Shown: piece by piece, positions 136 to 23,400 of the stretch | How positions within the stretch are numbered: the stretch's first letter is position 1 | Layout of the letters: every line of letters begins with the position of its first letter | The notes under the pieces: model-generated | Databases searched by the model: none | What the model was told of the DNA's origin: nothing | What the model saw: the letters and a program-made list of their open reading frames with translations, nothing else | IMG/VR virus record: IMGVR_UViG_3300033150_000018 | Location: 1 to 24,693 of that record | DNA: 24,693 nt | Strand: one strand, 5' to 3' | From: a virus | Made by a program: the position numbers and the translations under genes

Positions 136-528
136 ATGTTTAAACGGACTGACATCATGAAGCAAGCTCTTGAAGACCCAAAAAGTATTAAGAACATTTT
201 ACCTAAGGGTATTAGTGTTATTGGTAGGGGTGTAAAGATTCAGCAGTTTGATGATGAAATACAAATACTCAACATGGGAAAAGGCGGTGACTATTTTAAA
301 GAATGTTCCGATGAAGAGTATGCTTTCTTTCTGGAAGACGGGTGGAGAAAAGGTTGCACTAAAGTAAGTATGAGCAACTGTCTTCATAAGTTATCTATAA
401 TAGAAAGCAGAATTAAAACTGAATTAAATACTCGTAAGAACGATAAGCATATTCAGAACTTAAAGAACCGTCGAGAAACTTTATTAATTAAATACACTAA
501 TTTAAAAACAGAACTAAATAAAATTTAA
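136..528 (+). CDS. Unknown phage protein with C-terminal coiled coil
   Basis: I do not assign a function. The 130-residue product has a mixed N-terminal half containing GKGGDYFKECSDEEYAFF and a GWRKGC segment around residues 70-75. From about residue 80 to the end it is a highly charged helix (KLSIIESRIKTEL, then NLKNRRETLLIKYTNLKTEL) that should form a coiled coil or a long helical hairpin. ATG at 136 lies one base after the upstream stop, and the next ATG (530) lies one base after its own TAA, which supports a tight operon with the recombination genes. There is no Shine-Dalgarno sequence. A GTTTAAAC palindrome sits in the start region (138-145, inside codons 1-4). A role accessory to recombination or replication is suggested only by its position. 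Confidence 0.8.
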   Translation: MFKRTDIMKQALEDPKSIKNILPKGISVIGRGVKIQQFDDEIQILNMGKGGDYFKECSDEEYAFFLEDGWRKGCTKVSMSNCLHKLSIIESRIKTELNTRKNDKHIQNLKNRRETLLIKYTNLKTELNKI

Positions 529-529
529 T

Positions 530-1111
530 ATGGAAAATGTTTATAAAAATCTGAGTGCAATCTCAGTTGCCGATAAGGTAGAGAAAAAAGGAAGGTTTGA
601 TTATTTATCATGGGCATGGGCTTGGCACTATATCAAGCAAGAATATCCAACAGCTAACCGTACTGTATATGAAAACGATATGGGTATCCCATACTTTACT
701 GACGGTAAGTTTGCAAATGTTAAAGTTGGAATTACTATCAATGGTGTAGAACATATTGATTATCTTCCAGTGTTAGATAATGCTAACCGTTCTATTCCAA
801 TAACAAAGGTAACTTCTTTTGATGTCAACAATGCTATTCAAAGAGAAAAAGATAAAGCAATAGCAATGCACGGATTAGGATTATCATTATGGATAGGAGA
901 AGACACAGCTCGTTTAAACAAAGCGGAAGAAAAGCCAGTAGTTAAAAAAGATGTGAAGCTAAAACTAACCGTAGATAAATGGGATAAAGTTTTAATGTAT
1001 ATAGCTAAGAACAAAGATAAAGGATTAGAATATATAGTATCTCAGCTTAGCACTAAGTATACAGTTACTACCGCAGATAAAAACAAAATCAAAAAAGCTA
1101 TTAATGGATAG
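530..1111 (+). CDS. Sak3-type (DUF1071) single-strand annealing protein
   Basis: The 193-residue product has the hallmarks of the DUF1071/Sak3 group of phage annealing proteins: near residue 23 an F-D-Y-L-S-W-A-W-A-W stretch, then a helix ending in EYPTANRTVYEN and the G-I-P-Y motif. Later come VTSFDVNNAIQREKDKAIA and MHGLGLSLW, the segment that ends the annealing core near residue 125. After a charged linker there is a separate helical C-terminal segment (about residues 140-193). Such proteins coat ssDNA and anneal complementary strands during phage recombination. The gene overlaps the following exonuclease gene by 8 bp, the classic pairing of annealing protein with processive exonuclease, and an SSB-like protein follows soon after. 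Assignment comes from motif memory and context. Confidence 0.85.
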   Translation: MENVYKNLSAISVADKVEKKGRFDYLSWAWAWHYIKQEYPTANRTVYENDMGIPYFTDGKFANVKVGITINGVEHIDYLPVLDNANRSIPITKVTSFDVNNAIQREKDKAIAMHGLGLSLWIGEDTARLNKAEEKPVVKKDVKLKLTVDKWDKVLMYIAKNKDKGLEYIVSQLSTKYTVTTADKNKIKKAING

Positions 1112-1904
1112 AGAAACAATACTCAAGAAGCTTCAGAAAGATTCAGAGTATTATGGTAAGTTTGGCAAGCAGTTTCTTTCTGCTTCCAATATAAGACAAT
1201 TACTATATGAACCTACTGAGTTTAATAAAACAATAAAGACATTACCTTTATTGCATGGTAGATATTTTCACACCAGTATTCTGGAACCCGAAAAGATAGA
1301 TACAATACCAGTATTCAATGCCTCATCAAGAACAACCAATGCGTTTAAACAGTTCGAAGCTGAGCATAACTTAGACAGTTATGATATCCTGTTAACCAAA
1401 GAAAAAGAAAAGTTAGATAAGTTAATTGATAAACTTTTGGGTAACTGGAAGGTGTTTGATATTATTATTGGAGACGGCGTAGAGTATGAGGTTCCAAACA
1501 TAAAGGAGATTCATGGTCAAATGTTTAAAGGTAAGTGTGACGTATTAGTTAACAAACCTTTTGAAGTAGAAGTTGAACAAGACGGTCAGACATTTGTTGT
1601 TGATTATCCAGACGGTGCTATTGTAGATTTAAAAACCAGTTCATCTATTTTTAAATTCAGACATTCCTGTAATGCTTATTGTTATAATTCACAAGCATAT
1701 ATATACCAAGAGCTATTTGAAAAACCATTTTTATTTATTGTAATTGATAAGAATGATGGGCTACTTAAGTTTGCCCCGTGTAGTCCAGAGTTTATTGACA
1801 AGGGGGAAGATAATGTTAAAAAAGCAATTAAAGTTTATGAGAAATTTTATAGCGATGAAGCGACTTGCGACATCGATGATTATGTATATACAGAAATTTT
1901 ATGA
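1104..1904 (+). CDS. RecE/YqaJ-like PD-(D/E)XK exonuclease
   Basis: The 266-residue product has the motif set of phage RecE-like exonucleases. A conserved G-x3-H-x4-E-P motif (H56, E61 in GRYFHTSILEP) is followed by a metal-binding Asp in GKCDV (D146), the catalytic D-x-K in IVDLKTS (D175, K177) and the Q-x3-Y helix motif in NSQAYIY (Q197, Y201). These residues match the PDDEXK_1/exodeoxyribonuclease VIII architecture, which resects a 5' strand to expose 3' ssDNA for the annealing protein encoded just upstream. ATG at 1104 overlaps the end of that gene by 8 bp, consistent with translational coupling. All catalytic positions appear intact and the length is typical. Two GTTTAAAC sites lie in or beside the gene (1343, 1908). 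Confidence 0.87.
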   Translation: MDRETILKKLQKDSEYYGKFGKQFLSASNIRQLLYEPTEFNKTIKTLPLLHGRYFHTSILEPEKIDTIPVFNASSRTTNAFKQFEAEHNLDSYDILLTKEKEKLDKLIDKLLGNWKVFDIIIGDGVEYEVPNIKEIHGQMFKGKCDVLVNKPFEVEVEQDGQTFVVDYPDGAIVDLKTSSSIFKFRHSCNAYCYNSQAYIYQELFEKPFLFIVIDKNDGLLKFAPCSPEFIDKGEDNVKKAIKVYEKFYSDEATCDIDDYVYTEIL

Positions 1905-2043
1905 GTCGTTTAAACGATTCACTAAAGTTGATGATAAAAAATTGTGGATAGAAGTTCCAACTATCTACATGAGCACACAAGAGAAACAAGATTGTATCTC
2001 TAATGCTGTTAATATTTTGGAGCGTAACATTAAAATCAAATAA
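1882..2043 (+). CDS. Small unknown ORF between exonuclease and SSB-like gene
   Basis: This 53-residue ORF, beginning MYIQKFYESFKRFTKVDDKK and ending with a charged helix (CISNAVNILERNIKIK), fills what would otherwise be a 140-bp hole in a closely packed operon. It overlaps the exonuclease by 23 bp and ends one base before the next ATG. The start is uncertain: ATG codons at 1876 and 1882 are both in frame and neither has a Shine-Dalgarno sequence. I chose 1882 for the shorter overlap. The frame is open much further upstream, but that part is a shadow of the exonuclease gene. The composition looks coding, but I recognise no family. It carries the perfect decamer palindrome CGTTTAAACG at 1907-1916. 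Confidence 0.55.
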   Translation: MYIQKFYESFKRFTKVDDKKLWIEVPTIYMSTQEKQDCISNAVNILERNIKIK

Positions 2044-2044
2044 T

Positions 2045-2296
2045 ATGAGCGAAGTAAAAGAAGAAAAGCTGTATTGTGGTAGTGGTGTAGAAAAGTTTGA
2101 CGGTAATCTTATTGAGATTAACGTATGCTTATCTAAGATTCCTCAAGAACATAGGTTCGAATATGAGGGGAAGTGGTATACTAAACTTAAAGTTAATAAG
2201 AAAAAAGAAACTGACGAGTACGGTAAGACACACTCAGTGGAGGTTAACACTTGGAAACCTAAACCACAAAATGATACAGACGACTTGGGATTCTAA
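2045..2296 (+). CDS. Small protein with SSB-like acidic C-terminal tip
   Basis: The start is the ATG at 2045, one base after the preceding stop. An earlier in-frame ATG at 2003 would run through the previous ORF and is less likely. The 83-residue product is predicted mostly beta (CGSGVEKFDGNLIEINVCLS, then WYTKLKVNKKKETDEYGKTH) and ends in a short linker and an acidic-hydrophobic tip, DTDDLGF. That ending resembles the DDIPF-type tail with which single-strand binding proteins recruit partners. Together with the annealing protein and exonuclease immediately upstream, this suggests an SSB-like or recombination-accessory role. It is shorter than a normal OB-fold SSB (about 110-180 residues), so it could be a reduced OB fold or simply a protein that uses an SSB-type interaction tail. 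Existence is secure; function is inferred. Confidence 0.72.
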   Translation: MSEVKEEKLYCGSGVEKFDGNLIEINVCLSKIPQEHRFEYEGKWYTKLKVNKKKETDEYGKTHSVEVNTWKPKPQNDTDDLGF

Positions 2297-2329
2297 GATT
2301 GTTTGGAGCCGTAAGGCACAGCGTAATTT

Positions 2330-2389
2330 AGGGGGGCGTCACAACGACGATTAATTAATACTAATGTAATATTAAATGTTTTCCCCCCT
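2330..2389 (+). terminator. Possible G6/C6 stem, terminator-like
   Basis: AGGGGGG (2330-2336) and CCCCCCT (2383-2389) are complementary over 7 bp, an unusual G/C run in AT-rich DNA. They lie 34 bp after the SSB-like gene's stop codon and are followed by TTCTTT. The 46-nt loop is long for an intrinsic terminator, but its centre (about 2351-2376, alternating TTAATTAATAC...GTAATATTAA) can fold on itself. It could also be an unrelated structured RNA element or coincidence. Confidence 0.3.
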
Positions 2390-2403
2390 TCTTTATGCTG
2401 ACT

Positions 2404-2491
2404 ATGACAAACTCAAATTAAATTAACAGACTGACAAAATAATTTTGATTTTATATTTAAGTATCTCTATATTATTACTTTACTTTGTCAT
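2404..2491. repeat. Inverted and direct TGACAAA repeats flanking the putative promoter
   Basis: ATGACAAA (2404-2411) and its exact reverse complement TTTGTCAT (2484-2491) bracket the candidate promoter, with a third copy, TGACAAA, at 2432-2438. Three copies of a 7-mer in 88 bp of intergenic DNA suggest operator half-sites for a regulator, but such AT-rich words also arise by chance. Confidence 0.35.
2440..2473 (+). promoter_or_regulatory. Candidate promoter for the primase-helicase operon
   Basis: Two readings overlap. TAATTTTG at 2440-2447 matches the Bacteroidota -7 consensus TAnnTTTG, although no clear TTG lies about 20 bp upstream. Alternatively, TTGATT (2445-2450) and TATATT (2468-2473), separated by 17 bp, resemble a sigma70-type -35/-10 pair. 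Either would start transcription some 40-70 bp before the ATG at 2521. The high A+T content makes chance matches likely; the support comes mainly from the location. Confidence 0.35.
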
Positions 2492-2520
2492 TCTCGTCAT
2501 AAAAAATAGAATATAATTAA

Positions 2521-4926
2521 ATGGAAATAACAATCTTCAAAGATATTAAAGTAACCTCACAGCCTTTTTACAGGAGTGCTTTAGTTATCTTGAATAGAAT
2601 AAAAGAAGGGGCTTCTAAGGATTTAGTTAAAAAAATTCGTGAAGAAAAAGATAAGGATATAATTAATTCACTAAAACAAAAACTACCTGCTATATGTTTT
2701 AGCGGTAAGTTTACTAAAAGGAATGATAAGTCATTAACTCAACACAGTGGTTTAATTTGTTTAGACTTTGATGGTTACACTAATCAAAGAGATTTACTGC
2801 AAGAAAAAGAAAGACTATCTAAAAACAATTATGTTTATTCAGTTTTTATATCACCTTCTGGTAAGGGATTAAAAGCTATAGTAAAGATACCACCACTGCC
2901 AGACAATCATGTTAGTTACTTTAATAGTCTGGAAAAATATTTTGCTTCACCTCAGTTTGATAAGACATGTAAAAATGTATCGCGTGTATGTTATGAAAGT
3001 TATGACCCGCTGATTCATATCAATGAGAACGCAAGTGTATGGGATAAGCAAGAAGAAAAAGAATATACTGAAGTTATTAAGAACGTAGACTTACAAACTA
3101 TACCAATCACTGATGAGAATAAAATTGTAGAGATACTTGTAAAGTGGTGGCAAAAGAAATTTCCTATGAACGAAGGACAAAGAAACAATAATGCTTATGT
3201 TCTTGCAGCTGCATTCAACGACTATGGTGTTACAAAAACTCTGGCAGAATATGTTCTTGGTGGATTCGAAACCAGTTCGTTTAAACGCAGTGAGATTAAA
3301 CGCACAATAGATTCTGCTTATTCACAAATACAAAACTTTAATACTAAATATTATGAGGACGATGATAAAGTCACCATGATAAAACATAAATTAAAAAGAG
3401 GTGTATCTAAAAAAGAATTAAGAACTCAGCTAACTGAGCTCGACCCTAACTTAGTTGAGAATGTAATAAACAGATTAGAAGAAGAACAATCTAACCATCA
3501 GTTCTGGACTAAGAATGAGAAGGGTGTAATAAAAATAGTACATGTATCCTTTAAAAACTTTTTAGAAGAGAATGGTTTCTACAAGTTTTGTCCTGAAGGT
3601 TCTAAGAACTATGTCTTTGTGAAGGTTACAAATAATTTAATAGACCACACTTCGGAAAAAGAAATAAAAGACTACATACTAAATTATCTATTAGACTTAG
3701 ATGATATATCAGTATACAATTATTTTGCTGAGCACACCAGATATTTTAGGGAAGAATTTTTAACTCTGCTTTCTTCAATTGATGTATACTTTATTGAAGA
3801 TAAAAAAAATACTTCCTATTTATATTATCGTAATGGTGCAGTAGAAATATCATACAATAATATAAAACAGATTGATTACTTAGACCTTGGTGGTTACGTT
3901 TGGAAAGACCATGTAATAGATAGAGACTTTGCATTGTGTGAAAGTGTTGATTGTGATTACCAAAAGTTTATCCAAAACATTTGTGGTAATTCAACAGAGC
4001 GTGTAAACAGTATGCGTTCTACAATAGGATACATGTTACATGGTTGGAAGAACTTAGCTTATTGTCCTGCTGTTATACTAAATGATGAAATGATTTCTGA
4101 TAATCCAGAGGGTGGTAGTGGTAAAGGTTTGTGGGTCAATGGATTAAGTCACATGAAAAAAGTTGTAGTCATAGACGGTAAGTCATTCAACTTTGAGCGT
4201 TCGTTTGCTTATCAACTTGTAAGTGCTGACACTCAGGTACTCACCTTTGATGATGTTAAAAAACATTTTGATTTCGAAAGATTATTTTCTGTAGTAACAG
4301 AAGGATTAACATTAGAAAAGAAAAACAAAGATGCAATTAAGATTCCATTTGCTAAATCTCCTAAGATAGTTATAACAACTAACTATGCTATCAAAGGTAA
4401 AGGCACATCGTTTGAACGTCGTAAGTGGGAATTAGAATTAGCTCACCATTATAATAAAGATTACACACCTCTTGAAGAGTTTGGTAAACTTATGTTTGGT
4501 GATTGGAATGATGAAGAGTGGTGTCAGTTTGATAACTACATGATACAATGTTTGCAATTGTATTTAGAAAAAGGATTAATCAGAAGTGAGTTTGTCAATC
4601 TTAAAATTAGAAAGCTTTCAGCTGAAACTTGTCACGAATTTATTGAATGGTGTGGCGTGATTGGAGATAACCCTATACATGATAAGTTAAAAGTAGGAGG
4701 TAAAGTACCTAAGAATGATTTGTATACTGACTTTGTAGAAGATAACCCAGACTTTGCTCCTAAATCTAAGATGAGTGTGTCGCGTGTTAGGTTTTCTAAA
4801 TGGTTGGTTGCATTCTCACAATACCAATATGGTTGTGCACCTGAAGAAGGTAGAGACATGCACGCTCGTTGGATTAGATTCAGACATAAATCAGAGTTAA
4901 ACGAACAACAAGACTTTCCATTTTGA
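2521..4926 (+). CDS. Primase-helicase: VirE N-terminal/AEP-like primase fused to DUF5906-type helicase
   Basis: This 801-residue protein carries two enzymes. The N-terminal third looks like a VirE-N/archaeo-eukaryotic primase-like domain: a D-F-D catalytic pair in LICLDFDGY (D82, D84), a SPSGKGLK loop (about 111-118) and the late motif NVSRVCYESYDP (about 152-163). A helical linker follows. The C-terminal half is an SF3/DUF5906-like AAA+ helicase with Walker A GGSGKG (K535, followed by Gly rather than Ser/Thr, as I recall for this group), Walker B LTFDDV (D577/D578), sensor-1 ITTN (N621) and a following FERRKWELE arginine-finger region. It should prime and unwind at the phage fork. It is the first gene after the only intergenic region and overlaps the next gene by four bases (TTGA). 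The fusion is typical of Bacteroidota phages and elements. Confidence 0.88.
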   Translation: MEITIFKDIKVTSQPFYRSALVILNRIKEGASKDLVKKIREEKDKDIINSLKQKLPAICFSGKFTKRNDKSLTQHSGLICLDFDGYTNQRDLLQEKERLSKNNYVYSVFISPSGKGLKAIVKIPPLPDNHVSYFNSLEKYFASPQFDKTCKNVSRVCYESYDPLIHINENASVWDKQEEKEYTEVIKNVDLQTIPITDENKIVEILVKWWQKKFPMNEGQRNNNAYVLAAAFNDYGVTKTLAEYVLGGFETSSFKRSEIKRTIDSAYSQIQNFNTKYYEDDDKVTMIKHKLKRGVSKKELRTQLTELDPNLVENVINRLEEEQSNHQFWTKNEKGVIKIVHVSFKNFLEENGFYKFCPEGSKNYVFVKVTNNLIDHTSEKEIKDYILNYLLDLDDISVYNYFAEHTRYFREEFLTLLSSIDVYFIEDKKNTSYLYYRNGAVEISYNNIKQIDYLDLGGYVWKDHVIDRDFALCESVDCDYQKFIQNICGNSTERVNSMRSTIGYMLHGWKNLAYCPAVILNDEMISDNPEGGSGKGLWVNGLSHMKKVVVIDGKSFNFERSFAYQLVSADTQVLTFDDVKKHFDFERLFSVVTEGLTLEKKNKDAIKIPFAKSPKIVITTNYAIKGKGTSFERRKWELELAHHYNKDYTPLEEFGKLMFGDWNDEEWCQFDNYMIQCLQLYLEKGLIRSEFVNLKIRKLSAETCHEFIEWCGVIGDNPIHDKLKVGGKVPKNDLYTDFVEDNPDFAPKSKMSVSRVRFSKWLVAFSQYQYGCAPEEGRDMHARWIRFRHKSELNEQQDFPF

Positions 4927-6194
4927 TAAAACTTAGAAGATACCAAAAACAAATTGTAACACAGGCTACAGATATTGTAACCCGATATGGATTCGTATAC
5001 TTAGCTATGGAAGTTAGGACGGGTAAAACATTAACAAGCTTAAGTGTATGCGAACGTTTAAACGCAACCAATGTTTTGTTTGTTACAAAGAAGAAAGCTA
5101 TATCAAGTATTGAAGATGACATGCAAAAACTACAGGCACCGTTTAAACTTACTGTCATTAACTATGAATCATTACATAAGATTAGTCATGATTGTATATA
5201 TGATTATTTAATATTAGATGAAGCTCATACTCTTGGTGCATTTCCAAAACAAAATAAAAGAAGTAAACAAATAAAAAGGTTTATAGATATACATACTCCA
5301 AGAGTTATATTACTTTCTGGTACACCAACACCTGAATCTTACAGCCAAATGTTTCATCAAGTGTCTGGTATTAATGGTAATCCTTTTGGTTATTGTAAAA
5401 ACTTTTATCAGTTTGCTCGCAACTATGTAGATGTAAAAAAGAAAATCATAAATGGTTTTCCTATTAATGATTACAAGGCTGGAAGAAAAGAGATACTTGA
5501 TAAGATGAAGAAGTATACCATATCTTACTCACAAAAAGAAGCAGGGTTCAAGGTACAAACTGATGAAGAGATTTTATACGTTGATATATGCGATGATGTT
5601 TCAGCTTTGATAAAAAGATTATCTAAAGATAGAGTTATAGAAGGAGAGAATGAAGTTGTACTTGCTGACACTCCTGTAAAACTTATGATTAAAACTCATC
5701 AGTTAAGTTCAGGCACAATTAAATTTGAGAGTGGTAACTCTATGGTATTGTGTTACAAGAAAGCTCAGTACATAAGACAAAAGTTTCAAGGAAAAAAGAT
5801 TGCTATCTTCTACAAATTTAAAGAAGAACTTAACGCATTGAAAGAAGAGTATGGCGATTTGTTATGCGAAACATTAGAAGAGTTTAATAACTCTGCGAAG
5901 TGTATAGCTTTACAAATTGTCAGTGGTAGAGAGGGAATTAGTTTGCGTAAAGCAGAAGCATTAGTATACTATAATATTGATTTCAGTGCCACAAGTTACT
6001 GGCAATCAAGAGATAGAATGACAACCAAGGACAGGTTGTATAATAAAATTTACTGGATATTCTCCAGAACAGGGATTGAAAAGCAGATATACAAAGCCGT
6101 TGTTAAAAAGAAAGATTACACATTAAATCATTTCAAGAAAGATTTATTAACTTTAGACGATGACGGAACAGCAGATTCAATCGAAGATAATTAA
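4923..6194 (+). CDS. SNF2-type superfamily 2 helicase/translocase
   Basis: The 423-residue product has the SF2 motifs in order: a Q-like RRYQ near residue 5, motif I EVRTGKT (30-36, K35), motif II DEAH in LILDEAHTLG (99-102), motif III SGTPTP (132-137), motif V around VSGREGISLRKAE and motif VI YWQSRDRM. The spacing and the late Q-S-R-D-R-M motif fit the compact SNF2-like helicases common in phages, which act as dsDNA translocases in replication fork remodelling or recombination. The start is TTG at 4923, overlapping the primase-helicase stop as TTGA. Without that TTG the RRYQ motif would be cut off. The gene overlaps the following VRR-NUC nuclease by 35 bp, suggesting the two act together. 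It carries two GTTTAAAC sites only 85 bp apart (5056, 5141). Confidence 0.88.
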   Translation: MIKLRRYQKQIVTQATDIVTRYGFVYLAMEVRTGKTLTSLSVCERLNATNVLFVTKKKAISSIEDDMQKLQAPFKLTVINYESLHKISHDCIYDYLILDEAHTLGAFPKQNKRSKQIKRFIDIHTPRVILLSGTPTPESYSQMFHQVSGINGNPFGYCKNFYQFARNYVDVKKKIINGFPINDYKAGRKEILDKMKKYTISYSQKEAGFKVQTDEEILYVDICDDVSALIKRLSKDRVIEGENEVVLADTPVKLMIKTHQLSSGTIKFESGNSMVLCYKKAQYIRQKFQGKKIAIFYKFKEELNALKEEYGDLLCETLEEFNNSAKCIALQIVSGREGISLRKAEALVYYNIDFSATSYWQSRDRMTTKDRLYNKIYWIFSRTGIEKQIYKAVVKKKDYTLNHFKKDLLTLDDDGTADSIEDN

Positions 6195-6402: not shown

Positions 6403-6721
6403 CTTTGATGAAGATTTTTTAGAGACATTATATAATGCTCCACAGACTTTGTCTTTAGTTATAGCTTTATATATTGAAGAGCATTTGCCTGACTTACCTG
6501 TCAATGAATTATCTACACATCTTATGGCTGGCTTAGTATATCATTTTGATGAGCCTGTGCCATTTGTAATAGAAGTTACAAGACCAGACGAGTACCTTAC
6601 TATTCTTACTGACTTAGTGTTTATAGATATGGACGAGTACTTAGACTTTATTAATCTCAAATTAAATCTAAAAATCGATGAAAGATTCAGCTATCCAAGA
6701 CTTGTTACTAACAGCAAGTAA
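6368..6721 (+). CDS. Acidic unknown phage protein
   Basis: I recognise no family. The frame opens at 6299, but the first part lies inside the VRR-NUC gene. I place the start at the ATG at 6368 (MGVKFSYEKDYDFDEDF), giving 117 residues and a 35-bp overlap, the same as the overlap upstream. A GTG at 6371 is an alternative. The protein is strongly acidic and rich in Asp/Glu and aromatic residues, with amphipathic helices (ALYIEEHLPDLPVNELSTHL). It looks like a small soluble protein, possibly an interaction partner or DNA mimic, but nothing proves this. It overlaps the next gene by 44 bp in another frame, so expression is probably coupled. Confidence 0.65.
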   Translation: MGVKFSYEKDYDFDEDFLETLYNAPQTLSLVIALYIEEHLPDLPVNELSTHLMAGLVYHFDEPVPFVIEVTRPDEYLTILTDLVFIDMDEYLDFINLKLNLKIDERFSYPRLVTNSK

Positions 6722-7082
6722 ATATTTTAAAGTAGACATTCATACTAAATCCAGAAAACAAGAACATATAGAAGCTCGCGCTATTGTTTACAGCATCATG
6801 AGAGATTGTTTAAACATGACCTATAAAGATATTGGAAAAGTTTTTAACAAGAACCACGCTACTATTCTTCATGCAGTCAATGAACTACCTTACATGATTA
6901 AATACACTAAAGGATTAGGTGAAAAAAGACATGAACTTTTGGAATTATGGGGCTCCGCATACAGTGCTTATACAGTTATTGAGCGAGCTGAGAAGGTAAA
7001 ATATTTGCAGGATAAAATATTTTTGCTTAATTTGGAAGCGAAACTATTAACAAAACAATTAAACGAACTTCTTAATGTCTAA
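6678..7082 (+). CDS. DnaA-domain-IV-like DNA-binding protein
   Basis: The 134-residue product contains a good match to the DNA-binding domain IV of DnaA. Residues about 20-75 form helices around YKDIGKVFNKNHATILHAVN, which parallels the DnaA signature (IG..F..RDHSTVLHA). There is no AAA+ ATPase domain, Walker motif or domain I. The C-terminal ~35 residues (KYLQDKIFLLNLEAKLLTKQ) form a leucine-rich coiled coil, suggesting a dimer. Such truncated DnaA-like proteins occur in phages and could bind an origin, compete with host DnaA, or regulate transcription. Overlaps on both sides (44 bp upstream, 8 bp downstream) place it in the replication operon. A second protein with the same signature ends at position 134. 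Confidence 0.75.
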   Translation: MKDSAIQDLLLTASKYFKVDIHTKSRKQEHIEARAIVYSIMRDCLNMTYKDIGKVFNKNHATILHAVNELPYMIKYTKGLGEKRHELLELWGSAYSAYTVIERAEKVKYLQDKIFLLNLEAKLLTKQLNELLNV

Positions 7083-7323: not shown

Positions 7324-7326
7324 GAG

Positions 7327-7835: not shown

Positions 7836-8064
7836 TATGCTTGTGTTCTTTTAACTCACCACACTTTTCATAATCTTCAAGCTCAATAAAGTATTCTATC
7901 AATACATCAAACACATCATCTTCCATCGTTACGACAGGCTTAGTGGGATTAAAAATAAAAGCTGGAGGGTTCTCTTCATCTTCTATTAATTGTTCGTAAG
8001 AAGCTTTCCCAGTTAGTAATTTATAACTGTTCATCATACATGTGTGTTCGTCAAAGTATTTCAT
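7717..8064 (-). CDS. Small acidic protein at the end of the virion operon
   Basis: The 115-residue product starts MKYFDEHTCMMNSYKLLTG and continues with an acidic helical region (EYFIELEDYEKCGELKEH) to about residue 77. I recognise no family. Its ATG overlaps the stop of the 2195-residue gene as ATGA, so it is translationally coupled to the virion operon. The C-terminal ~38 residues are encoded antisense to the conserved-looking end of the + strand gene at 7518-7835, and their composition (SHGNRLGKNTSNPSTDL) is unlike the rest. That part may be a read-through extension added after an earlier stop codon was lost. The first 77 residues look real; the extension is doubtful as a functional part. 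Confidence 0.7.
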   Translation of the reverse strand: MKYFDEHTCMMNSYKLLTGKASYEQLIEDEENPPAFIFNPTKPVVTMEDDVFDVLIEYFIELEDYEKCGELKEHKHINSYYSLSAPLVTYKKGMPAFRSHGNRLGKNTSNPSTDL

Positions 8065-11000
8065 CGTCTGTTTACTCTTACTCTTTTAGGTCTTCTGTTT
8101 CTTGTCTTTCTTCTGTCACCACTTCTTTCTCTTTGTGGTCTTCTTTTTTCTTTTTGTTTTTCTAATTCTTTTATACGTTTCTTTTGTTCAGGAGTAAGCT
8201 TTGTTTCAGGAGGAAACATATCTTTAATTATAACTCTTCTAACATCTTTGTAAAATGGAACCAATCCTAAATTACCTAACACCTCTAACAATAATCTATT
8301 TTCTATTTCATCCATAGCTTTCTGTCTTGTCTCAGGTTTCTTTGCGGTTTGACTACTAACACCTACCTTTAATAAACGAGACAAAGTATTTATCACGGGT
8401 CCATAAGGTCCAGAAAATGAATCAACAAATATTTCTTCTAAACTTTTCTTTTTCAAATCCTCTACACCAACCTGACTAAATACAATAGAGTGTTTATACT
8501 TATCATACTCCTCACCACCTCTTAAACCTTTTAATAAATCTCTGTTTACTGATTCTTCTAAATAGAAATTAATTGGTAGCATAGGTATGTTTCCTAACGA
8601 CTGTCTTGCAAGAAGAGATATCATTGCCCCAACTATCTGTCTTGCCATTACATCTTCTATGTCTTCGTCCTTATCATCTTTTGCGTCAAACAATTCTTCG
8701 TCTAACACACTTGATAACATACTGTAAGCTGTCATATATGCAGACATTCTAAATGTAATACCTGCAAGTAATCCTGCCGCTTCTGCTTTAGATAAATCAC
8801 CTTTATTAAATAAAGCAAATATTGCATTACGAGCAGTACCAAATTCAAACAAACTAAATCGAGCCATAAAAGAATTCGCCATTCTATATATACCCATCTG
8901 CATACTATCATCTGTTCTCCTCATGTTTTTTATAATAGCATCAGCTGCGTTATTAGAAGTAGCAACAGTGATTACTTCGTTGTCTGCTAAAGCTGTAGCG
9001 TTATCACGAGCTTCTTTAAACTCAGGTGATAAATATTTTGAGGTTCCGTCAGCTATTTCTTGAAAATCTTTTTTAGTAATCTTAACATCTTCACCAGTTA
9101 ATTCTTTTACTTGAGCTTCAAAATTCTGTGCCCAGTTTCCAAACCATAAAGGACGAGACATTGCTTTATCAGGAAATGTTATTATGTTTGATGCTATTGC
9201 ATTTACTATTCTACCTGTTAGTTTTAATCCTGAATACTTTAATATCTCTCCAAAGACATTGTTTAAACGACTTGTAGCTGAACCTGCTTTTGAATCTAAA
9301 CCACCGTAGTCTGACATCTGAGTATGTTTAGACTCCATCACATCAGGATTGTATAGTTTACTGGTTTGTGATGACCTTAGATTTGTCATAGCATCAAAAC
9401 CAGCTGTAACATTTTTAGGGTTAGCAACCCAAGTCCCAAAGTTTTTAAAAGCTCTCATTGCCACAGCAGGATTCTTTGCAATGATACCAAAGTTTGCAAT
9501 AATCTCAGCCCCCATTCTGTAAACAGAACCAAGAGTTGCTTGATAACCAAGACGCATCATGTTCATCGTGCTTAAGTTTCCACTTGGTGTGTCGGTATAA
9601 GTTCCTTTAAGTATAACATCTACTAACTCAGTCTTTGCTTTTTGAATAGCATTGATGGCTGCTTTTGCGTCTTTATTACCAGTCTTTGCTTCTTCTTTTA
9701 TTTTGTTTAAAGTTTGCTCAACCTCTCTCAAAGTCTGTGTCATTTCAAAATCCATTATAGTTTCTTGAGCACCACGCATAGCTGAATAACCTGGGTCAAA
9801 ACTAATAGCCTTAGCACCATTAGTTCTTTCAACTAATGTATTTGATTTAGCACTGTTAACATTGTTGTTTACTTTGTCAATTAATTTTTGTACACTTTGG
9901 TCTTTTGTTTTAGGGTCTAATACCACACGGTGACTATAATTATTATACAACTCTACAGGAACACCATGTAGGTTAGCAGCAATATATTCTGCATCTGAAG
10001 CTAAAGAATTATTTACATCATCATAAAGAGCTAAAGCTTTCTTTTCTTTAGCTGTTAAAGAGTTTTCTATTTTAGTTAAACTAATTTCTCCATCTACTTC
10101 AAACTCTGTTTTTAATTCATTTAATATTTTTGCATCCTGTTCGTTTAAGATACCATCGTTTTCTATTGCTTCTAAAGTTTTATTTACAAAATCTATAGCT
10201 GATGGAGTCTTAGCGTTTGGTTTGCCGTCAACAAAATTAGACTCATGCTCTCTTTGCAATTGAAGCATCCTTAGTTTATATTTCTTTTTAACTAACGCGT
10301 TTCTTGTTATACCTAACCTATTACCGTCGGTGTTTAACAATTTAGCAGCAGCATCTATTTTTGTTTGTAATCTTTTTACTCTTGACTTAACTGTTTCTAA
10401 AGACCGTGCTAACTTTCCAAATGTATTGTTATAAATAGTCTTACTATTTCTGTTTCCAAAAACATCATCGATAAAAAATGTAGAAAGACTACGGATTCTT
10501 TCAGTTAAAAACCCTCTTCCAGTTCTTAAATTTTTAATCTTACTATACATATTAGTCATAGCATCCACATACTTATTCATTCTAAACTTTTGTATCAGTG
10601 GATTTACTTTATTAAAACTATCAAGTGCATTTAATTTTGTAGCTATGTCTGTAACTGCTTTACCTGCGAAACCATTCTTTATGTTTTCTATAATTTGTTC
10701 TAATACTTTTAAGTCAGAATCATCCAGTTGCTTCATTTGTTCTGGAGTCATCTTGAGTACTTGACGAGCATCTTCCTTAGCTCTTTTATCTGGTATATTA
10801 TTTAGGTCTGCCTCAGTAACTTCCTTTTGTTTTTCAGAAATATTTTTAATAGCAGTGTCCGCATCAAAATCATCAGGCACAGGTTCTGCTTTTATACTAT
10901 CAATATCTTGATTAATATTCTCTTGTACTGCATTTAATATATCTAATGCTTTAGGTAAAGTCTCTTGAGCTTTCTTAAATGACGGAACTTTTTTACCAGA

Positions 11001-14000
11001 ACCATACTCTTTTGCTAACTCTATAAAAGAATCTAACTGAGCTTCTGGTATTAAAGAAGGGTTAATACTGAATAAAGTTTTTAATGCTGCTTTTAAATCA
11101 GCTGGTAGTACACCAGTCTTAGCACCACCTACTTGCTTCTTAGCTTTTTTGGATTGACTCTTCGCAGTGTTTAAACGCTGCACATAATCTTGTTTAGTAA
11201 ATACATTATCAACAAATGTAAGGAAGCTATCTACTGATTTTTTATTATTAAGATTTACATTGGCAAATCTTTTTGTAATAGCTTTTACTTTAGACTGTGA
11301 AATCTTACCAAGGTTTTTACCAAAGCTACTTATTAGACCAGCTATGTTTTTCATAGACTTTTTATAAGCAGCTGCTGATTCTCTTGCAGCTTTAGCTTGT
11401 TTTCTTATCTGGTCTTTAAGTGCTACTCTTTCGTTTACTACAACTTTTTTATCTTTAGGTTTCCCCAGTATCTTTTTAACACTTGGAGCTTTCTTAATTT
11501 TTATACCAAGTTTTTCATTTAGTTCTCTGACTAATTGGTTTCTTTCTATATCATTAAGTTGCTGATAAAGTTTTGAGTTCTGTAAATACTTTAAAGTATT
11601 GTCAAGTATTTTTTTAGGACTTGTGCTTTCACCTACCTTTCTACCTTTGGTCTTTTTAATTATATCATTAATGATACTCTGTACCCTGTTAGGGTCAGCT
11701 TTAGCTTCAGGTGTTGTTGGTGCACCTATATATTCGTTGGGAGATATTCCTTGCTTCTGAGCGTCACGATTTATCGCTGAGATGACTTTCTGATAAAGGC
11801 TTGACCCTTCTTGCCCTTGCTGAATGGAGCTTTGTCTACCATCTGAAAGAATCTGTTGCCTGCTCTTCGCGTCAATAAATCTTGAGTTGATTGCTTTTTT
11901 GTCTGAGACTTCATAAGTAATATTTTTTTCGTCTAATATATCTAACAGCTTTGCCAGCTTTGCATCCTTATCTGCATCACTAAAATCAAAGATGTCCAGC
12001 AAAGATAGTAAATTATTTGTTTCCGACAAAGTATACTCATCAATACCAGCTTCTTTCAGAGCTTGGAATGTACCTTCACTGTCTGAAACTTTAATTGTAA
12101 TCTCATTACCGTTGTGATTTTCTGCACCATCTGTCGTATATTCTGCAGCAATAGAAGACTCTTGTACTTCGGGTGCTAACGCAGCAGTTATTGCAGCATA
12201 TTGTGAAGCTTGTTCTAACGTTGCGTTTTTTAATTTTACAACATTACTTACCTCTCTAATCTTTGTGCCTGCATCATTTACATAACCACCTACTGACTCT
12301 TCAATTTCAATCTCTACTCCTAAATCATCTGCAATATTTTGAAGTGATTGTTTATACTCTTGGTATTGTGGGGACTTTCTTAAACCACCTGCTTCAGATG
12401 TAGACTCTATAGAAGTCTCAAAGAATGGTGCAACATTAACACTTACTTCCTCTTGCGTTTGCGTCTCGATAGGCTTGTCAGGAGTTTGGTTTTGGGTTTC
12501 GCCCTCTTGGGTAACGACCCCAGCGGCGTCTCCTTCTCCCACTTCTGGGCTATCTGTGGTAGATTCTTGTACATCCACCTGCGTTGCGCTTGACTCTTGA
12601 ATGGCATTGGCTCTTTCGTTTATTTGTTGTTCGGTTGGTTCAAGTATACCTTCAGATATTAGCTGGTCTTTAGCTTGTTCTTTAGCCTCTTCATCATCTA
12701 AATCTTTTACATTCTTAAACCTATCTACTTCAGCTGCAGTTTTCTTAGCAGCTTCTATTGCTAATTTAAGTAATTCTTTTTGTTTGTTTTTAACCTGCTC
12801 ATCAGAAGGTTTTTCTACACCCTCTTCTTGTAATGCTTGTATAGCTTCCAACTGTGATACAGAAAAATATTTTTCTAAACCATCTGGTAACTTTACAGTT
12901 TCTCCAACATCTGTTTCTGCTTCTTTTACAATAGCATCAAGCTCTTCATTTATTTCTTTTATTCTCTCTTTGTTTTCTGGAGAGTCTGGATTCTCCATAT
13001 TATCTCTTTCTTGAAGTAGCTCAATGTATCTACTTCTTCTTTCTCCTTTTAAGTTATCAGGTGTTTGCTGATTCAAGTTTGCTTCTTGTCTTCTTTTAGT
13101 ATATTTTTCTTCAAGAGCTGTGTCATTTTCAATAACAAATTGTGAATCTATTATTTCTTGGTCTGTCATGGTATCAATAGCAGCCTCAACATCTTGCTTA
13201 CTCATTAACATTTTAGTACCTTTCTTTGTCAGGTACCCATAGCTTGGTGGTTTAAAAAAGTTTTTACCTTTACCTACCATATTATTACCTATGTCTGTTA
13301 AGCTCATACCGCTTACTGCAGTGGGTATTGATAATACAGAAGAAGCTTGTCCTGTTATACCTTCAAATCCAATCTCAGCTACATCCATTTCTTGACCCGT
13401 AACTGCTCTTGCGGTAGCTTCACCACCTGCTCCACCAACAGCTTCAATACCTGCAGCTTTTAAAGCAGCTCTGGCTTTCATTCCTTTTGTTATAGCTTTA
13501 TCCGCAGCCTTTGCAGCCTTTATAGTACTACCCCCTATCTTACTTGCAGCACCCCTTGTAAACGCATCTATAGTACCTATAACAAGACCTCTTGCCATGG
13601 CTTTGTTTCTTATAGATTGCATAGCAGTAGGGTTGTTTAATATTTTTCTTACACCATCTTTGTCAAATTTAAATCCAGCACGGTCAACTTCTTCTTTCAT
13701 AAACTCAGTAAAGGCCAAACCTGTTTCAAGTGTAGCACTTGCTCCTAAGATGGCACCGTTTATACCACCTCCTACTGCTCCTACTGCACCCGCTATTGCA
13801 CTACCTATTGGTCCACCTATAGAACCCGCTATTGCACCTGTTCCTCCTGCAACTGTCGCACCTAATGCTCCACCAGCTGCTGCACCTCCTACCACTTCAG
13901 GGTTTACCATTGATGCAACTGACGATACAAATAACTGACCAATGACTGAAGGATTTTGAGCTACACCGAACATAAAACCTAAAACTCCCCCACCTTCATT

Positions 14001-14648
14001 TTCATATATTCGGTTGAAGTCTTTCATCTCATCAGACATACCATAGTTGTCCATGTTCTTAACAGCAGCAATATATTGTTCTACATCTGCATCTGAGGTT
14101 TCACTACCTGACATGAATAATCTTCGAGCATCATCTATGGTAGCACCTTGACCAAGACCTTGCGCTCCTGCTCTATACATATCACCAAAGAAATCTGTAA
14201 CTGTATTTTTACCCAGCATTTCTTCAAGCCAAGTATTCTTCTCACCAACATCTACGTTAGCACCAAACTTAGTACCGACAGGTTTATCGGGTAAGGGTTG
14301 TTTGACAAGTGATTGATTAAGAGAAGCAGGGTTTAAACGGTCTACACTTCTATTTGGTGAACCCAAAGAACCAGCTCCTTGCGGCGAAGGAGTCTCTTCT
14401 GCAGGAGTTTGTGTAGCCGAATCCACAGGCTGTTGAGGACCCTCTCCAGAAAAATCTTTTTTTTTTAAGGGTGTTAGAAACTCCCCAAACTGTTCTTCGC
14501 TTTCAAATACACCTTCTGGTAGCATCTCAAACAAATCTTCAGTTCCCTCATCTTCTATAAATTCTTGAAGCTCTTCTACATCTCTAAAGGTTCCCTCTGG
14601 AACCATAGCAAATAAGTCTTCTAATATTTTTAATTGAATCTCATTCAT
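8061..14648 (-). CDS. Giant (2195 aa) internal/ejection virion protein, possibly polyvalent
   Basis: Seen in order: two tandem copies of an acidic motif (VPEGTFRDVEELQEFI, LPEGVFESEEQFGEFL; residues about 14-57); an A10 tract coding three lysines (about 61-63); a Pro/Gln/Ser-rich linker; a Gly/Ala-rich membrane-type zone (about 245-305, repeated GxxxG); an acidic low-complexity linker (about 650-740); an alpha/beta domain (about 770-925); long basic and acidic helical or coiled-coil stretches; hydrophobic segments near 1960-1985 and 2000-2032; and a very basic tail (about 2150-2195) ending RRPKRVRVNRR. This resembles the large internal proteins that short-tailed phages eject into the cell with DNA. 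The 770-925 domain recalls domains of polyvalent proteins, but only from memory. I see no polymerase or lysozyme motif. The gene follows the 693-residue gene by 3 bp. Confidence 0.75.
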   Translation of the reverse strand: MNEIQLKILEDLFAMVPEGTFRDVEELQEFIEDEGTEDLFEMLPEGVFESEEQFGEFLTPLKKKDFSGEGPQQPVDSATQTPAEETPSPQGAGSLGSPNRSVDRLNPASLNQSLVKQPLPDKPVGTKFGANVDVGEKNTWLEEMLGKNTVTDFFGDMYRAGAQGLGQGATIDDARRLFMSGSETSDADVEQYIAAVKNMDNYGMSDEMKDFNRIYENEGGGVLGFMFGVAQNPSVIGQLFVSSVASMVNPEVVGGAAAGGALGATVAGGTGAIAGSIGGPIGSAIAGAVGAVGGGINGAILGASATLETGLAFTEFMKEEVDRAGFKFDKDGVRKILNNPTAMQSIRNKAMARGLVIGTIDAFTRGAASKIGGSTIKAAKAADKAITKGMKARAALKAAGIEAVGGAGGEATARAVTGQEMDVAEIGFEGITGQASSVLSIPTAVSGMSLTDIGNNMVGKGKNFFKPPSYGYLTKKGTKMLMSKQDVEAAIDTMTDQEIIDSQFVIENDTALEEKYTKRRQEANLNQQTPDNLKGERRSRYIELLQERDNMENPDSPENKERIKEINEELDAIVKEAETDVGETVKLPDGLEKYFSVSQLEAIQALQEEGVEKPSDEQVKNKQKELLKLAIEAAKKTAAEVDRFKNVKDLDDEEAKEQAKDQLISEGILEPTEQQINERANAIQESSATQVDVQESTTDSPEVGEGDAAGVVTQEGETQNQTPDKPIETQTQEEVSVNVAPFFETSIESTSEAGGLRKSPQYQEYKQSLQNIADDLGVEIEIEESVGGYVNDAGTKIREVSNVVKLKNATLEQASQYAAITAALAPEVQESSIAAEYTTDGAENHNGNEITIKVSDSEGTFQALKEAGIDEYTLSETNNLLSLLDIFDFSDADKDAKLAKLLDILDEKNITYEVSDKKAINSRFIDAKSRQQILSDGRQSSIQQGQEGSSLYQKVISAINRDAQKQGISPNEYIGAPTTPEAKADPNRVQSIINDIIKKTKGRKVGESTSPKKILDNTLKYLQNSKLYQQLNDIERNQLVRELNEKLGIKIKKAPSVKKILGKPKDKKVVVNERVALKDQIRKQAKAARESAAAYKKSMKNIAGLISSFGKNLGKISQSKVKAITKRFANVNLNNKKSVDSFLTFVDNVFTKQDYVQRLNTAKSQSKKAKKQVGGAKTGVLPADLKAALKTLFSINPSLIPEAQLDSFIELAKEYGSGKKVPSFKKAQETLPKALDILNAVQENINQDIDSIKAEPVPDDFDADTAIKNISEKQKEVTEADLNNIPDKRAKEDARQVLKMTPEQMKQLDDSDLKVLEQIIENIKNGFAGKAVTDIATKLNALDSFNKVNPLIQKFRMNKYVDAMTNMYSKIKNLRTGRGFLTERIRSLSTFFIDDVFGNRNSKTIYNNTFGKLARSLETVKSRVKRLQTKIDAAAKLLNTDGNRLGITRNALVKKKYKLRMLQLQREHESNFVDGKPNAKTPSAIDFVNKTLEAIENDGILNEQDAKILNELKTEFEVDGEISLTKIENSLTAKEKKALALYDDVNNSLASDAEYIAANLHGVPVELYNNYSHRVVLDPKTKDQSVQKLIDKVNNNVNSAKSNTLVERTNGAKAISFDPGYSAMRGAQETIMDFEMTQTLREVEQTLNKIKEEAKTGNKDAKAAINAIQKAKTELVDVILKGTYTDTPSGNLSTMNMMRLGYQATLGSVYRMGAEIIANFGIIAKNPAVAMRAFKNFGTWVANPKNVTAGFDAMTNLRSSQTSKLYNPDVMESKHTQMSDYGGLDSKAGSATSRLNNVFGEILKYSGLKLTGRIVNAIASNIITFPDKAMSRPLWFGNWAQNFEAQVKELTGEDVKITKKDFQEIADGTSKYLSPEFKEARDNATALADNEVITVATSNNAADAIIKNMRRTDDSMQMGIYRMANSFMARFSLFEFGTARNAIFALFNKGDLSKAEAAGLLAGITFRMSAYMTAYSMLSSVLDEELFDAKDDKDEDIEDVMARQIVGAMISLLARQSLGNIPMLPINFYLEESVNRDLLKGLRGGEEYDKYKHSIVFSQVGVEDLKKKSLEEIFVDSFSGPYGPVINTLSRLLKVGVSSQTAKKPETRQKAMDEIENRLLLEVLGNLGLVPFYKDVRRVIIKDMFPPETKLTPEQKKRIKELEKQKEKRRPQRERSGDRRKTRNRRPKRVRVNRR
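14459..14470 (-). other. A10 homopolymer (possible slippage site) in the 2195-aa gene
   Basis: The + strand has ten consecutive T between about 14457 and 14466, read as A10 in the coding strand (L-K-K-K-D). It falls just after the N-terminal tandem motif. Runs of nine or more A are known sites of RNA polymerase slippage, and here one added A gives a TAG within about 35 codons. Confidence 0.4.
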
Positions 14649-14651
14649 ATC

Positions 14652-16733: not shown

Positions 16734-16737
16734 ATCT

Positions 16738-17583
16738 CTAATATCCGTATAGTAATTTTTGTAATCCAGCTAAATCAGTTACATCTCCAATACCTGCTTG
16801 TAGGTCTTTGAATCTTGGGTCATCTCCAGTGAAAAACTCTTTAGCTTTTGTTATATCAAGATTACCTTTAGTGTTTAATTGTCTTACCTCTCTTGGAGTC
16901 AAGTCAAGTTTTCTTAATTTCTCAGCTCTTTGAGCTCGTGTCAATCCTGTTCCTCCCTCTTCTACAGTCTTACCTAAATCTTCACTTGTACCTAAACCTG
17001 ATTCTAAGTTAGTACCAGCTCTATCAGCTTTAGATGTACCAAACAATGGAACTAATGCAGCAGCTGAAGACGCTGCTTGTGCAGCTCCTTGTATACCACC
17101 TGCTATTTGTTGTGAATATTGACTACCATAATCTCTTGCTATTTGTGCTTGGTCAGCAGCTGCTCCTACTTCCATATCAATAAGCTGTTGATTTAACTTA
17201 TCTTTTGCTTCTGCTTTCATTTTCTGATTTTCATACAACGCATCTTGCATACCTGTACGAACAACTTCATTAGCTTGTGCGGCAGCTTGTTGTAAACCTC
17301 CGACACCAGCTGCTAAATTTCTTGCGTCTCCCTGTTGTAATGCAGCTAACGCTTGAGCTGCAACTTGTTGGTTCTGTTTAAACTGATTCTCAAAAGCATC
17401 AATAGGAACATTTAATGTTTCATAAAAATTCTTTTCTGCTCTTTCTTTGGCTTTTTGCATAAGAGCTTTCTGTTCTCTTTGTGCTTTCCTTTGGTCACGC
17501 TTAGCTTTTGCTGCATTAGCAAAACTAACACCCGAACCTACTGCAGACAAACCAACTCCTATTGCTGCTATTATTCCTGACAT
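16738..17583 (-). CDS. Probable internal virion protein with N-terminal membrane segment (T7 gp14-like role)
   Basis: The 281-residue product starts with a hydrophobic, Gly-rich segment (IIAAIGVGLSAVGSGVSFAN, residues 3-23) long enough to enter a membrane. A strongly basic/acidic coiled coil follows (KAKRDQRKAQREQKALMQKA), then Ala/Gln-rich helices (about 75-200), including a hydrophobic AAQAASSAAALVPLFG stretch. Length, N-terminal membrane segment and Gln/Ala-rich helices match the smallest ejection protein of podoviruses (T7 gp14 type), which forms a channel for DNA entry; sequence similarity is not claimed. It overlaps the upstream cupin-like gene by 13 bp and precedes the two larger candidate ejection proteins by 4 bp, supporting co-production. 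The leader is A/T-rich with no Shine-Dalgarno. Confidence 0.7.
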   Translation of the reverse strand: MSGIIAAIGVGLSAVGSGVSFANAAKAKRDQRKAQREQKALMQKAKERAEKNFYETLNVPIDAFENQFKQNQQVAAQALAALQQGDARNLAAGVGGLQQAAAQANEVVRTGMQDALYENQKMKAEAKDKLNQQLIDMEVGAAADQAQIARDYGSQYSQQIAGGIQGAAQAASSAAALVPLFGTSKADRAGTNLESGLGTSEDLGKTVEEGGTGLTRAQRAEKLRKLDLTPREVRQLNTKGNLDITKAKEFFTGDDPRFKDLQAGIGDVTDLAGLQKLLYGY

Positions 17584-18104: not shown

Positions 18105-18123
18105 GTTGTTATACTATTTGTCA

Positions 18124-18131
18124 CAAAGATA
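18124..18131 (-). promoter_or_regulatory. Candidate -7 box (TAnnTTTG) inside the virion operon
   Basis: On the minus strand TATCTTTG (18131 down to 18124) matches the Bacteroidota -7 consensus exactly and lies about 20 bp upstream of the cupin-like gene's ATG at 18104, in the longest gap (35 bp) of the late block. I see no TTTG about 20 bp further upstream, so this is a weak candidate for an internal promoter serving the cupin and internal-protein genes. Confidence 0.28.
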
Positions 18132-18139
18132 ATAAATTT

Positions 18140-18928: not shown

Positions 18929-18932
18929 TTTC

Positions 18933-20489: not shown

Positions 20490-20490
20490 A

Positions 20491-23400
20491 TTAACAACTT
20501 GTTTTTTCTATTACCATTCCTAAACTATTGACCCTAATATACTCATTTCCTGCTACTTTGTAATAACCAGCTGGTAGATTATTAATACCTTGACCTGGTG
20601 CATTACCTGCACATTGAGCATCCTCATAAACTAAATCATATAATTGTAATCCTGAAGCAGGTGTTCCCGAACTATAAAATGTTTGTGATAACGGTTGCTG
20701 ACAAGCAATACTTGCGCTGTTCTGTCTGGTACTCGCTTGAAAAGAAAAACACGGTACAGTACAATCACAACACGCTTCAGTAGCTGAAACATTAGAGTAA
20801 CATAAACTTTGTGCAGCTGTAAATCTAAAGTCATATACTAAGTATAAATACTGATTGTTTGTAGGCAACGAAAATGTTGGAGATGTAACAGTTGCTTCTC
20901 TAATATTTGTATTAGCAGGATTTGTTACTTGCCCATTTGGTATTGTAGTAGCTTGACTTAAAATACCAGCTACGCCCGCTGCATCATTTGCATATAACGT
21001 ATTGCTGGATAAATATTTAAAATTATCATTTGGATATTTCCAATCATAATCATCTGTTGACATTTTATTAACGCGCATGTTTAAACTTGCTCCGTTATAT
21101 GGATATACACCTACAGAACGCACTCCCGTTTGACTTTGGAAATAACTAAATAAATTTGGATTAGAGCCCATAGTTATTTGGTCAGTATCTATTGGACTAA
21201 TAGTTTGTGAATCAGACCATCCATACTCTACATGAATTAATGAACCGCTATCAATGTTTGAATTAATTACACATTTAAATACTGTTATAGTTAGTGGTGT
21301 AACACAATTAGGTGTTACGCTAAAGCTTGCTACTTGATTATTCTGAGGTGTAATTGTAACAGTAGCAGTAGTAGGTGTGTTCAATGTTTTTGATACAGTT
21401 AATGAACCTCCAGAAGACGTAGACCCAGAAGATGTAACGACACCATTCCAGTTTACTTCTACTATTACAGTTCCTAAAGTTACACCATAAACTACAGTAA
21501 AGTCACCTATTACAGTTCCAAAATCTATGGTATAAGAAACTGCTGAGGATGCTTTTGTTGTATTAAATTGTGAGCCACACTGATAAACTACTTCAGGTTG
21601 AGGAACTTTTCTGTTGTTTGTAGATAGAACATACTCATCCATATAAGGGTCATACCCTCCTAACTTTTGAGTTCCTAAAGCTTGTTGAAATGTATCTCTA
21701 AACCATGAACGCATACCCTTATCAGATATAACTTCTAACTGGTCACTTGTAGAATTTCCAACTAATCTTATAACACCTACTCTTTTAGTGTCAGTAAAAT
21801 AATAACTATCTCCATATACAGCAAAACTTTCTGGATTAAAACTAATACCATATTCTTCTGTTCTTGCTATTTGAGTTCCTAATATTGTAGGTGAACTAAC
21901 TATAGCACCACCTCCTGTTGAATCACTTATTAAATTTTTTGATGCAAGTACATAACTAATTTTATCTTCTTGTAATGTTAGTATATCTGTTTCTCTTGCA
22001 TATAATTTTTGTATTGGTCCAAAGCTCGTTTCTAATTCTTTAAAATTTGCAAGGCCTAAGTTAAACTCATTAAGATTATTAACTCCCGCATTGCTACTAA
22101 ACACTCCACTATAAGTTAGGTCAGCAAATCTGTGAGCTTCTTTAAAATCTTGTTCAGATACAGCTAATACTCTTTGCCCCATAGTTAAAGCTCTTCCAGC
22201 TAAATCATCTTTGATTTTAAAACTTTCTACACCATTAGCAAATGTATAACAATCTATAAATGGTAATGTTACTATAGCTGGCTGTGTAGTTGTTTGGTCT
22301 TGGTCGTTAGTATCACCACCAGACATGTGTAGGTAGTTTCCACTACCGTCTCTTACTACTGGATAAGATTCAGAAGCATCATAAAAAATATCAGGACTTG
22401 CGTCAACTGGTTCTGTTTCAAAAACAATCATAGTGTTTGCTCGTGTAACTACAATCTCACAACTTACAGACACATTTCTTCTTCTTGACACAGGCCATGC
22501 ACCAGCACATCCTTGTTTTTTAGTTTTAAAAACAAGACCTAAAGGAGAGGCTGGGTCACCAGGAGTGTCTTGAACAAATTGAAAAAATACAGAATCAGTA
22601 CCTACAGCAGCACCACTATTTGTGGTACAACTTACACCAGCTACTCCTGCTGAGTAACTACCAATTGCACTTTTATAAATAACTTCTATATTTCCATCTG
22701 CTTGTATTTTACCTGGTGAAGCATTGGCTGGGTTTATTTGGTCACCAACCCACCAACTTCTAAAGTCTGGATAATCGCTGGTAGAAAATAATGTTTGCTC
22801 CCACTTCCATTCAAACCCTTCACACGCTCCACCTCTTGCGCTTCTTTTAACTCTCATTTTTACTTCAATAATTGAGCCTGCAGGTATATCGTAATTAGTA
22901 GTTGTTTGAGGTGGACCCGCATCAGTTGTAAACAATGGGTATCTTACTCCGTGCTTACAAGTTCCATCATCTCCAGTACCTGTTACTTTTTTCAATCCAT
23001 TATCTATTACTGCATCAGGTGGAATATTAACATTAAAACCAGAAGGTTTTATTTCCATATACAAACCAGGTAATTGATTTGTGTTTACACCCATACCCTG
23101 AGCATTAGATAAAAAGTCTCTTGCTTGTGCTTCTACATTTAAAACTTTGGCTTTAACTACTTCAGTTATAGGACCACCAACATCTGTTTTTACTATTAAA
23201 GTGTCACCTGTTTTAACTTTATTTTGGTTATCACCTTCAAGTTTAAAATATGTAACTTGTGAGGTTTGAACTGTATAATAAAAATTAGAGAATATAGTTT
23301 CGTAACTACCCTTACTTGGCTTTACAACAAACTTATATCGCTGAGCCCAAGAAGGCGCATAGTTTTCGACGGTAGCTTTGATACTATTAAGAGTTATACT

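Follow-up and report, generated by a model that had tools for sequence, protein, structure and literature searches.

The question raised by this virus DNA is why one short palindrome, GTTTAAAC, should recur so often along it. The window, that is, the whole stretch of 24,693 bases under analysis, holds 13 copies where about one is expected. The first-pass annotation had reported these copies, and every coordinate proved exact. They are listed here together with the truncated left end of the record; the sites are palindromes and are given without a strand.

1..135, plus strand: truncated left end of the record, near position 49,690 of the complete relative G004 (base 6 of the record aligns there); the dense array and the SprT-like gene of relatives (G004 55374-56003) fall beyond this end, outside the record
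138..145: GTTTAAAC site overlapping the start codon of ORF 136-528, with G at +1
912..919: GTTTAAAC site within the Sak-like annealing gene
1343..1350: GTTTAAAC site within the exonuclease VIII-like gene
1908..1915: CGTTTAAACG site 4 bases 3' of the exonuclease gene
3279..3286: CGTTTAAACG site within the primase gene
5056..5063: CGTTTAAACG site within the helicase gene
5141..5148: GTTTAAAC site within the helicase gene
6808..6815: GTTTAAAC site within ORF 6678-7082
9261..9268: GTTTAAAC site within the large minus-strand gene 8061-14648
11169..11176: GTTTAAAC site within the minus-strand gene 8061-14648
14331..14338: GTTTAAAC site within the minus-strand gene 8061-14648
17376..17383: GTTTAAAC site within the internal virion protein gene 16738-17583
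21079..21086: GTTTAAAC site within the virion structural gene 20491-24609

Dinucleotide shuffles of the window gave a mean of 1.13 copies and a maximum of 4 (100 shuffles), in line with the single copy that had been predicted from base composition. Against a codon-shuffled background the enrichment also stands: synonymous shuffling within genes gave a mean of 1.10 (standard deviation 1.01, maximum 6 in 1000 shuffles), compared to 12 in-gene copies. In the full record of 43,191 bases, the octamer occurs 20 times, for 1.9 to 2.6 expected under Markov models of order 1 to 3 and 8.2 at maximal order, and it ranks first among all 8-mers (order 3, 20 versus 2.6). Codon shuffles and Markov models agree with the earlier view that protein sequence cannot explain the copies. 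That view had counted six copies read as Phe-Lys and seven as Leu-Asn; the seven hold, but the Phe-Lys copies number five, since the site at 1908, 4 bases past the stop of gene 1104-1904, falls either between genes or within a questionable ORF. An excess due to chance, codon usage or protein sequence could draw on the fact that the octamer includes the common TTTAAA, but it is refuted by the shuffles, the Markov models and the existence of site-free relatives of equal composition, and its probability is practically nil.

With its flanks, the site has the consensus YGTTTAAACR. Symmetrically on the two sides, the flanks favour a pyrimidine at -1 and, weakly, certain bases from -4 to -6; the pyrimidine preference recurs in unrelated phage groups. 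Ten of the window's sites carry a C at -1 (or a G at +1), and the other three (1908, 3279, 5056) are CGTTTAAACG, as had been described. Octamers with a single mismatch to GTTTAAAC are at or below expectation; the core is therefore strict. Terminators and RNA hairpins were rejected, extended dyads amounting to 4 of 168 as against 3.5 with shuffled flanks. As for restriction and modification, the octamer is enriched and not avoided, and a general comparison of the genes common to array contigs did not bring up a methyltransferase as the shared gene. Separately, the record of the relative G000 lacks ATGCAT, CATATG, AGCGCT and TGCGCA (10.0, 7.6, 2.7 and 2.8 expected), possibly through restriction avoidance.

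The window's Sak-like annealing protein, exonuclease, primase (phrog_28855) and helicase place the phage among podovirus-like phages whose known relatives infect Flavobacteriia. Judged from complete or longer IMG/VR relatives, the record is a fragment of a genome of about 62 kb. Two complete 62-kb relatives, G004 and G007 (the latter with a 77-base terminal repeat), have 46 and 42 sites, respectively. Three of the G004 sites fall within 74 bases (56272, 56297, 56338), in the divergent intergenic region ahead of the leftward early operon, and beyond this triplet the operon has one site per 100 to 500 bases. Counted from the early promoter, the number of sites per 4 kb is 15, then 9, then 4, then 0 to 3. 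The widening of site spacing that was first noticed in the window is real and continues outside the record; it is the tail of this fall in density from the early operon. Several intergenic G004 sites lie about 25 to 45 bases ahead of start codons, and others are inside genes. Two further observations were made on these genomes. G012 (105,284 bases) seems to be a join of two related phages, with 29 sites in positions 1-56,000 and one in the remainder. G004 encodes a GroEL (57002-58603) and, nearby, a GroES-like gene (58964-59221), homologous to the chaperonin 10 kd subunit of MW202828.

Comparison between relatives separates the sites from the phage family. Between G004 and G000 (about 80% DNA identity), 14 of 19 aligned sites are kept, where 24% would be expected for any octamer. 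G013, at 79% identity, keeps 0 of 23 aligned sites and has none in 60 kb. The enrichment expected in relatives is thus found in the complete ones described above, but other, equally close relatives have no sites at all, and for this reason the sites are part of a system linked to a gene, rather than a trait of the phage family. The site-free relatives retain the same terminase, primase and DnaA-like genes, which argues against a family-wide replication or packaging signal, an option left by the first-pass annotation.

In the site-bearing relatives, the first early gene (G004 55374-56003) encodes an SprT-like protein (PF10263) with a C-terminal zinc ribbon, and the three clustered sites lie 257 to 335 bases upstream of it in both G004 and G007. 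A homolog search found this gene absent from the site-free relatives. Within the primase family, the pair of complete genomes that carry the SprT-like gene have 88 sites versus 6.6 expected, and the truncated members of the window clade 179 versus 19.8; the 23 genomes lacking the gene have 28 versus 55.8. Three other proteins were rejected as readers. A wHTH protein next to groEL (G004 59216-59665, called 'repressor' in MW202828) is present in nearly all complete relatives, with sites or not, and is 86% identical in the site-free G013; a DnaA-domain-IV protein is likewise conserved in G013; and the protein of about 210 residues linked to a second array system (see below) has no homolog in the GTTTAAAC clade.

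Viral contigs with three close GTTTAAAC sites were also collected regardless of their genes, which gave at least 120 stretches. Among the matches listed, these are mostly unrelated phages (GC 0.4 to 0.5, with as many as 39 sites in 9 kb), the SprT-like gene is the one window-clade gene widely common to them, and its family is the most widespread in array loci (44 of 75). Some array contigs have no SprT-like homolog and may be fragments. In the reverse test, loci were picked solely because they encode relatives of the Venkman or Pan1 proteins, an array being defined as two or more sites at over three times the expectation. Arrays were present in 63 of 72 loci, counts that are not independent trials since the queries came from array phages and the loci are partly related; the octamer totalled 564 copies versus 38, and the next palindrome 25 versus 10.

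Isolates are in agreement, among phages of Methylophilales, Dinoroseobacter, Pseudanabaena, Burkholderia and E. coli. The Methylophilales phage Venkman has 34 copies of GTTTAAAC versus 2.1 expected, and the others are Pan1 (9 versus 0.13), R5C (8 versus 0.30), Mica (7 versus 0.12) and Bas97 (6 versus 0.51). Six of the 34 Venkman sites abut an ATG, and Mica and Bas97 each have a site 16 to 20 bases upstream of the SprT-like gene. The host span of gene and arrays includes Proteobacteria and Cyanobacteria; no relatives were found in genome contigs or E. coli genomes. The array phages Bas97 and Mica have integrases, and PF00589 and PF00239 gave no match in 13 records of the window's phage family. 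Other palindromes were seen in two of the isolates: ATAA-N5-TTAT in Pan1 (ON968452.1, L349; GC 63%), 8 versus 0.01 expected, and ACAAT-N1-ATTGT in Bas97 (PQ850606.1, L350), 6 versus 0.03.

When homologs were grouped at 50% identity, 15 of the 20 resulting SprT-like lineages had arrays. Of the 17 lineages that possess a KQxTR motif, 15 have arrays, and of the three that lack it (Eden, FP1, L419) none does. The homolog is present and the array absent in the actinophages tested (Eden, Stuff and DrSierra) and in loci L391 and L407, DrSierra being an array-free member of an array-bearing lineage. This Arthrobacter phage (L356), which has an SprT-like gene and no GTTTAAAC, contains CTTGCGCAAG five times versus 0.06 expected, perhaps the site of its own homolog.

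The co-occurrence of gene and array across unrelated phages suggests the SprT-like protein as a reader that controls the virus genome. The sites could instead be read by a host factor or by another linked gene, with the SprT-like gene as a mere companion; binding by the SprT-like protein is, after all, what we infer, and the Sak-like annealing gene is also common to 11 array contigs. The latter is, however, retained by the site-free G013, and the octamer is seen in phages of several bacterial phyla, over a GC range of 0.29 to 0.66, with the SprT-like gene as the only constant found. We regard a companion role as distinctly unlikely. The best fit is one of the possibilities raised at first, a site in the DNA to which a phage regulator or nucleoid-like protein binds, and the co-occurrence names a candidate for its reader.

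The PF10263 profile matches 21 of 24 aligned members of the protein family, with E values as low as 1.7e-9. The window-clade member scores E 0.006, below the curated cut-off, and has 35 to 41% identity to proteins annotated SprT-like. The predicted model of the SprT-like protein is confident (pLDDT 89), the KQxTR linker being the least certain part, and a fold search with the SprT-like model returned no solved structural relative. The eukaryotic relative SPRTN is a DNA-dependent protease (PMC5127644), and the window clade, Venkman, Pan1 and others retain the catalytic HExxH. The phage protein may likewise act on proteins at the sites: it would load at GTTTAAAC and cleave or remove proteins on phage DNA (host silencers, stalled polymerases, crosslinks), the array marking self DNA for clearing, and the sites do span whole genomes. 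On the other hand, HExxH is kept in only 23 of the 40 long homologs on array contigs and lost in 17, and a further 19 matches on such contigs are shorter than 150 residues; in many matches only the ribbon is left, or HExxH is gone. Since numerous array phages lack HExxH or the greater part of the protease domain, protease activity is dispensable for keeping the array, and a protease role at the sites cannot be the sole one. That site density is highest around early genes and start codons also points to regulation. We consider clearing by a DNA-bound protease unlikely.

Our preferred reading is that the phage SprT-like protein binds YGTTTAAACR, with the ribbon as reader, and that the sites form a dispersed operator array lowering early transcription; we give it a probability of roughly 0.6. 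Physical binding, the reading role of the ribbon and repression are all what we infer from sequence comparison. Acting as a symmetric complex, the protein would read GTTTAAAC mainly through its C-terminal zinc ribbon and the KQ(S/T)TR motif that comes before it, and would sit in the early promoter region, close to start codons and at numerous positions within early genes. Once the protein accumulates, early transcription would most likely fall, that of its own gene included, in a mode of action akin to operators plus stoperators. Repressors do not usually have a strict 8-bp core, and the sites within late genes need explaining if the protein is one. It could also be supposed that the signal acts in RNA, GUUUAAAC near start codons serving as a signal for translation or mRNA decay that the zinc ribbon reads. 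The six Venkman sites next to an ATG lie exactly between ribosome-binding site and ATG, and several intergenic G004 sites are near start codons. A strict palindrome, however, suits a symmetric protein on duplex DNA, the flank preferences are symmetric and most sites are inside genes, which makes an RNA signal highly improbable.

The same phage family offers a second system of dispersed palindromes, designated group B.

MW202828.1 43,749-55,158 (L008, L009), G020, G021, G023 and L196-L223: group B arrays, GTGTC-N6-GACAC

Among the relatives with such palindromes, MW202828 has 14 identical copies of GTGTCGTTAACGACAC, and others have GTGTC-N6-GACAC. As a widespread site the 16-mer of MW202828 was rejected, with single matches only, in 8 stretches. 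These arrays track the protein of about 210 residues, which is the product of the first early gene of MW202828; loci picked by this protein had an array in 26 of 29 cases, and a fold search with it gave no solved relative. Group B arrays show that dispersed sites going with a single early gene are a recurrent device of the phage family. As with GTTTAAAC, the palindromes are dispersed, densest in the early operon and linked to one early gene; the site differs, the protein is unrelated, and the group B core is asymmetric and oriented with early transcription (84 to 8). A variant and a further palindrome were noted. G017 has GTCTG-N6-CAGAC arms with the core GTTTGAAC at 5252, 7157, 7423 and 8706, around a divergent homolog of the 210-residue protein (7966-8628). 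The relatives L036 and L038 have an excess of the palindrome GGGAG-N8-CTCCC (log-probability about 9).

More broadly, the data may reflect a mobile gene-plus-site system found across bacterial phyla, in which an SprT-like zinc-ribbon protein is paired with a fixed 8-bp word present dozens of times per genome, by which the phage would mark its own DNA and control it, or clear it by proteolysis. We hold this wider proposal tentatively, at slightly less than even odds. If the SprT-like protein does read the sites, phage SprT-like proteins, whose annotations go no further than protease or 'transcription elongation protein', would gain a DNA target, and there would be a case of a new gene that seems to write one word into many genomes. 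Selection on the sites would then be measurable across phages, and the question could be put to the test in the E. coli phage Bas97, an isolate from a widely used laboratory host species. We know of no phage system in which a metalloprotease family is coupled to a recognition word spread over the genome.

How does this arrangement compare with known systems? Chi and DNA-uptake sequences are also short over-represented words independent of reading frame, but they are strand-asymmetric and host-specific, whereas GTTTAAAC is a palindrome that goes with a phage gene. With the SprT/SPRTN family (PF10263), the phage protein shares the SprT-like domain, HExxH in many members and a C-terminal zinc ribbon, and SPRTN acts on DNA; unlike that family, many array phages have lost the catalytic motif. 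No description of a sequence-specific site or genome-wide array was found for the family, and a literature search of incomplete coverage returned no link of phage SprT-like proteins to a site and no GTTTAAAC arrays. The system that this one probably works most like is that of the stoperators of cluster A mycobacteriophages (L5, Bxb1 repressor), where 20 to 30 sites for a phage regulator are spread genome-wide, some at the early promoter and many inside the early region, and are absent from heteroimmune relatives (PMC6550527, PMC9283540). There, the repressor blocks transcription elongation at its sites. The likeness lies in the presence of at least 20 to 30 sites throughout the genome, 46 in G004 and 42 in G007. 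The stoperator regulator is the immunity repressor of a temperate phage. The protein linked to GTTTAAAC is SprT-like. Two defining features of stoperators, asymmetry and diversification, fail here: stoperators are 13 to 14 bp long, asymmetric and oriented with transcription, and their consensus diversifies among relatives, whereas GTTTAAAC is a strict palindrome of 8 to 10 bp with symmetric flanks, and its octamer is identical in unrelated phages of several host phyla.
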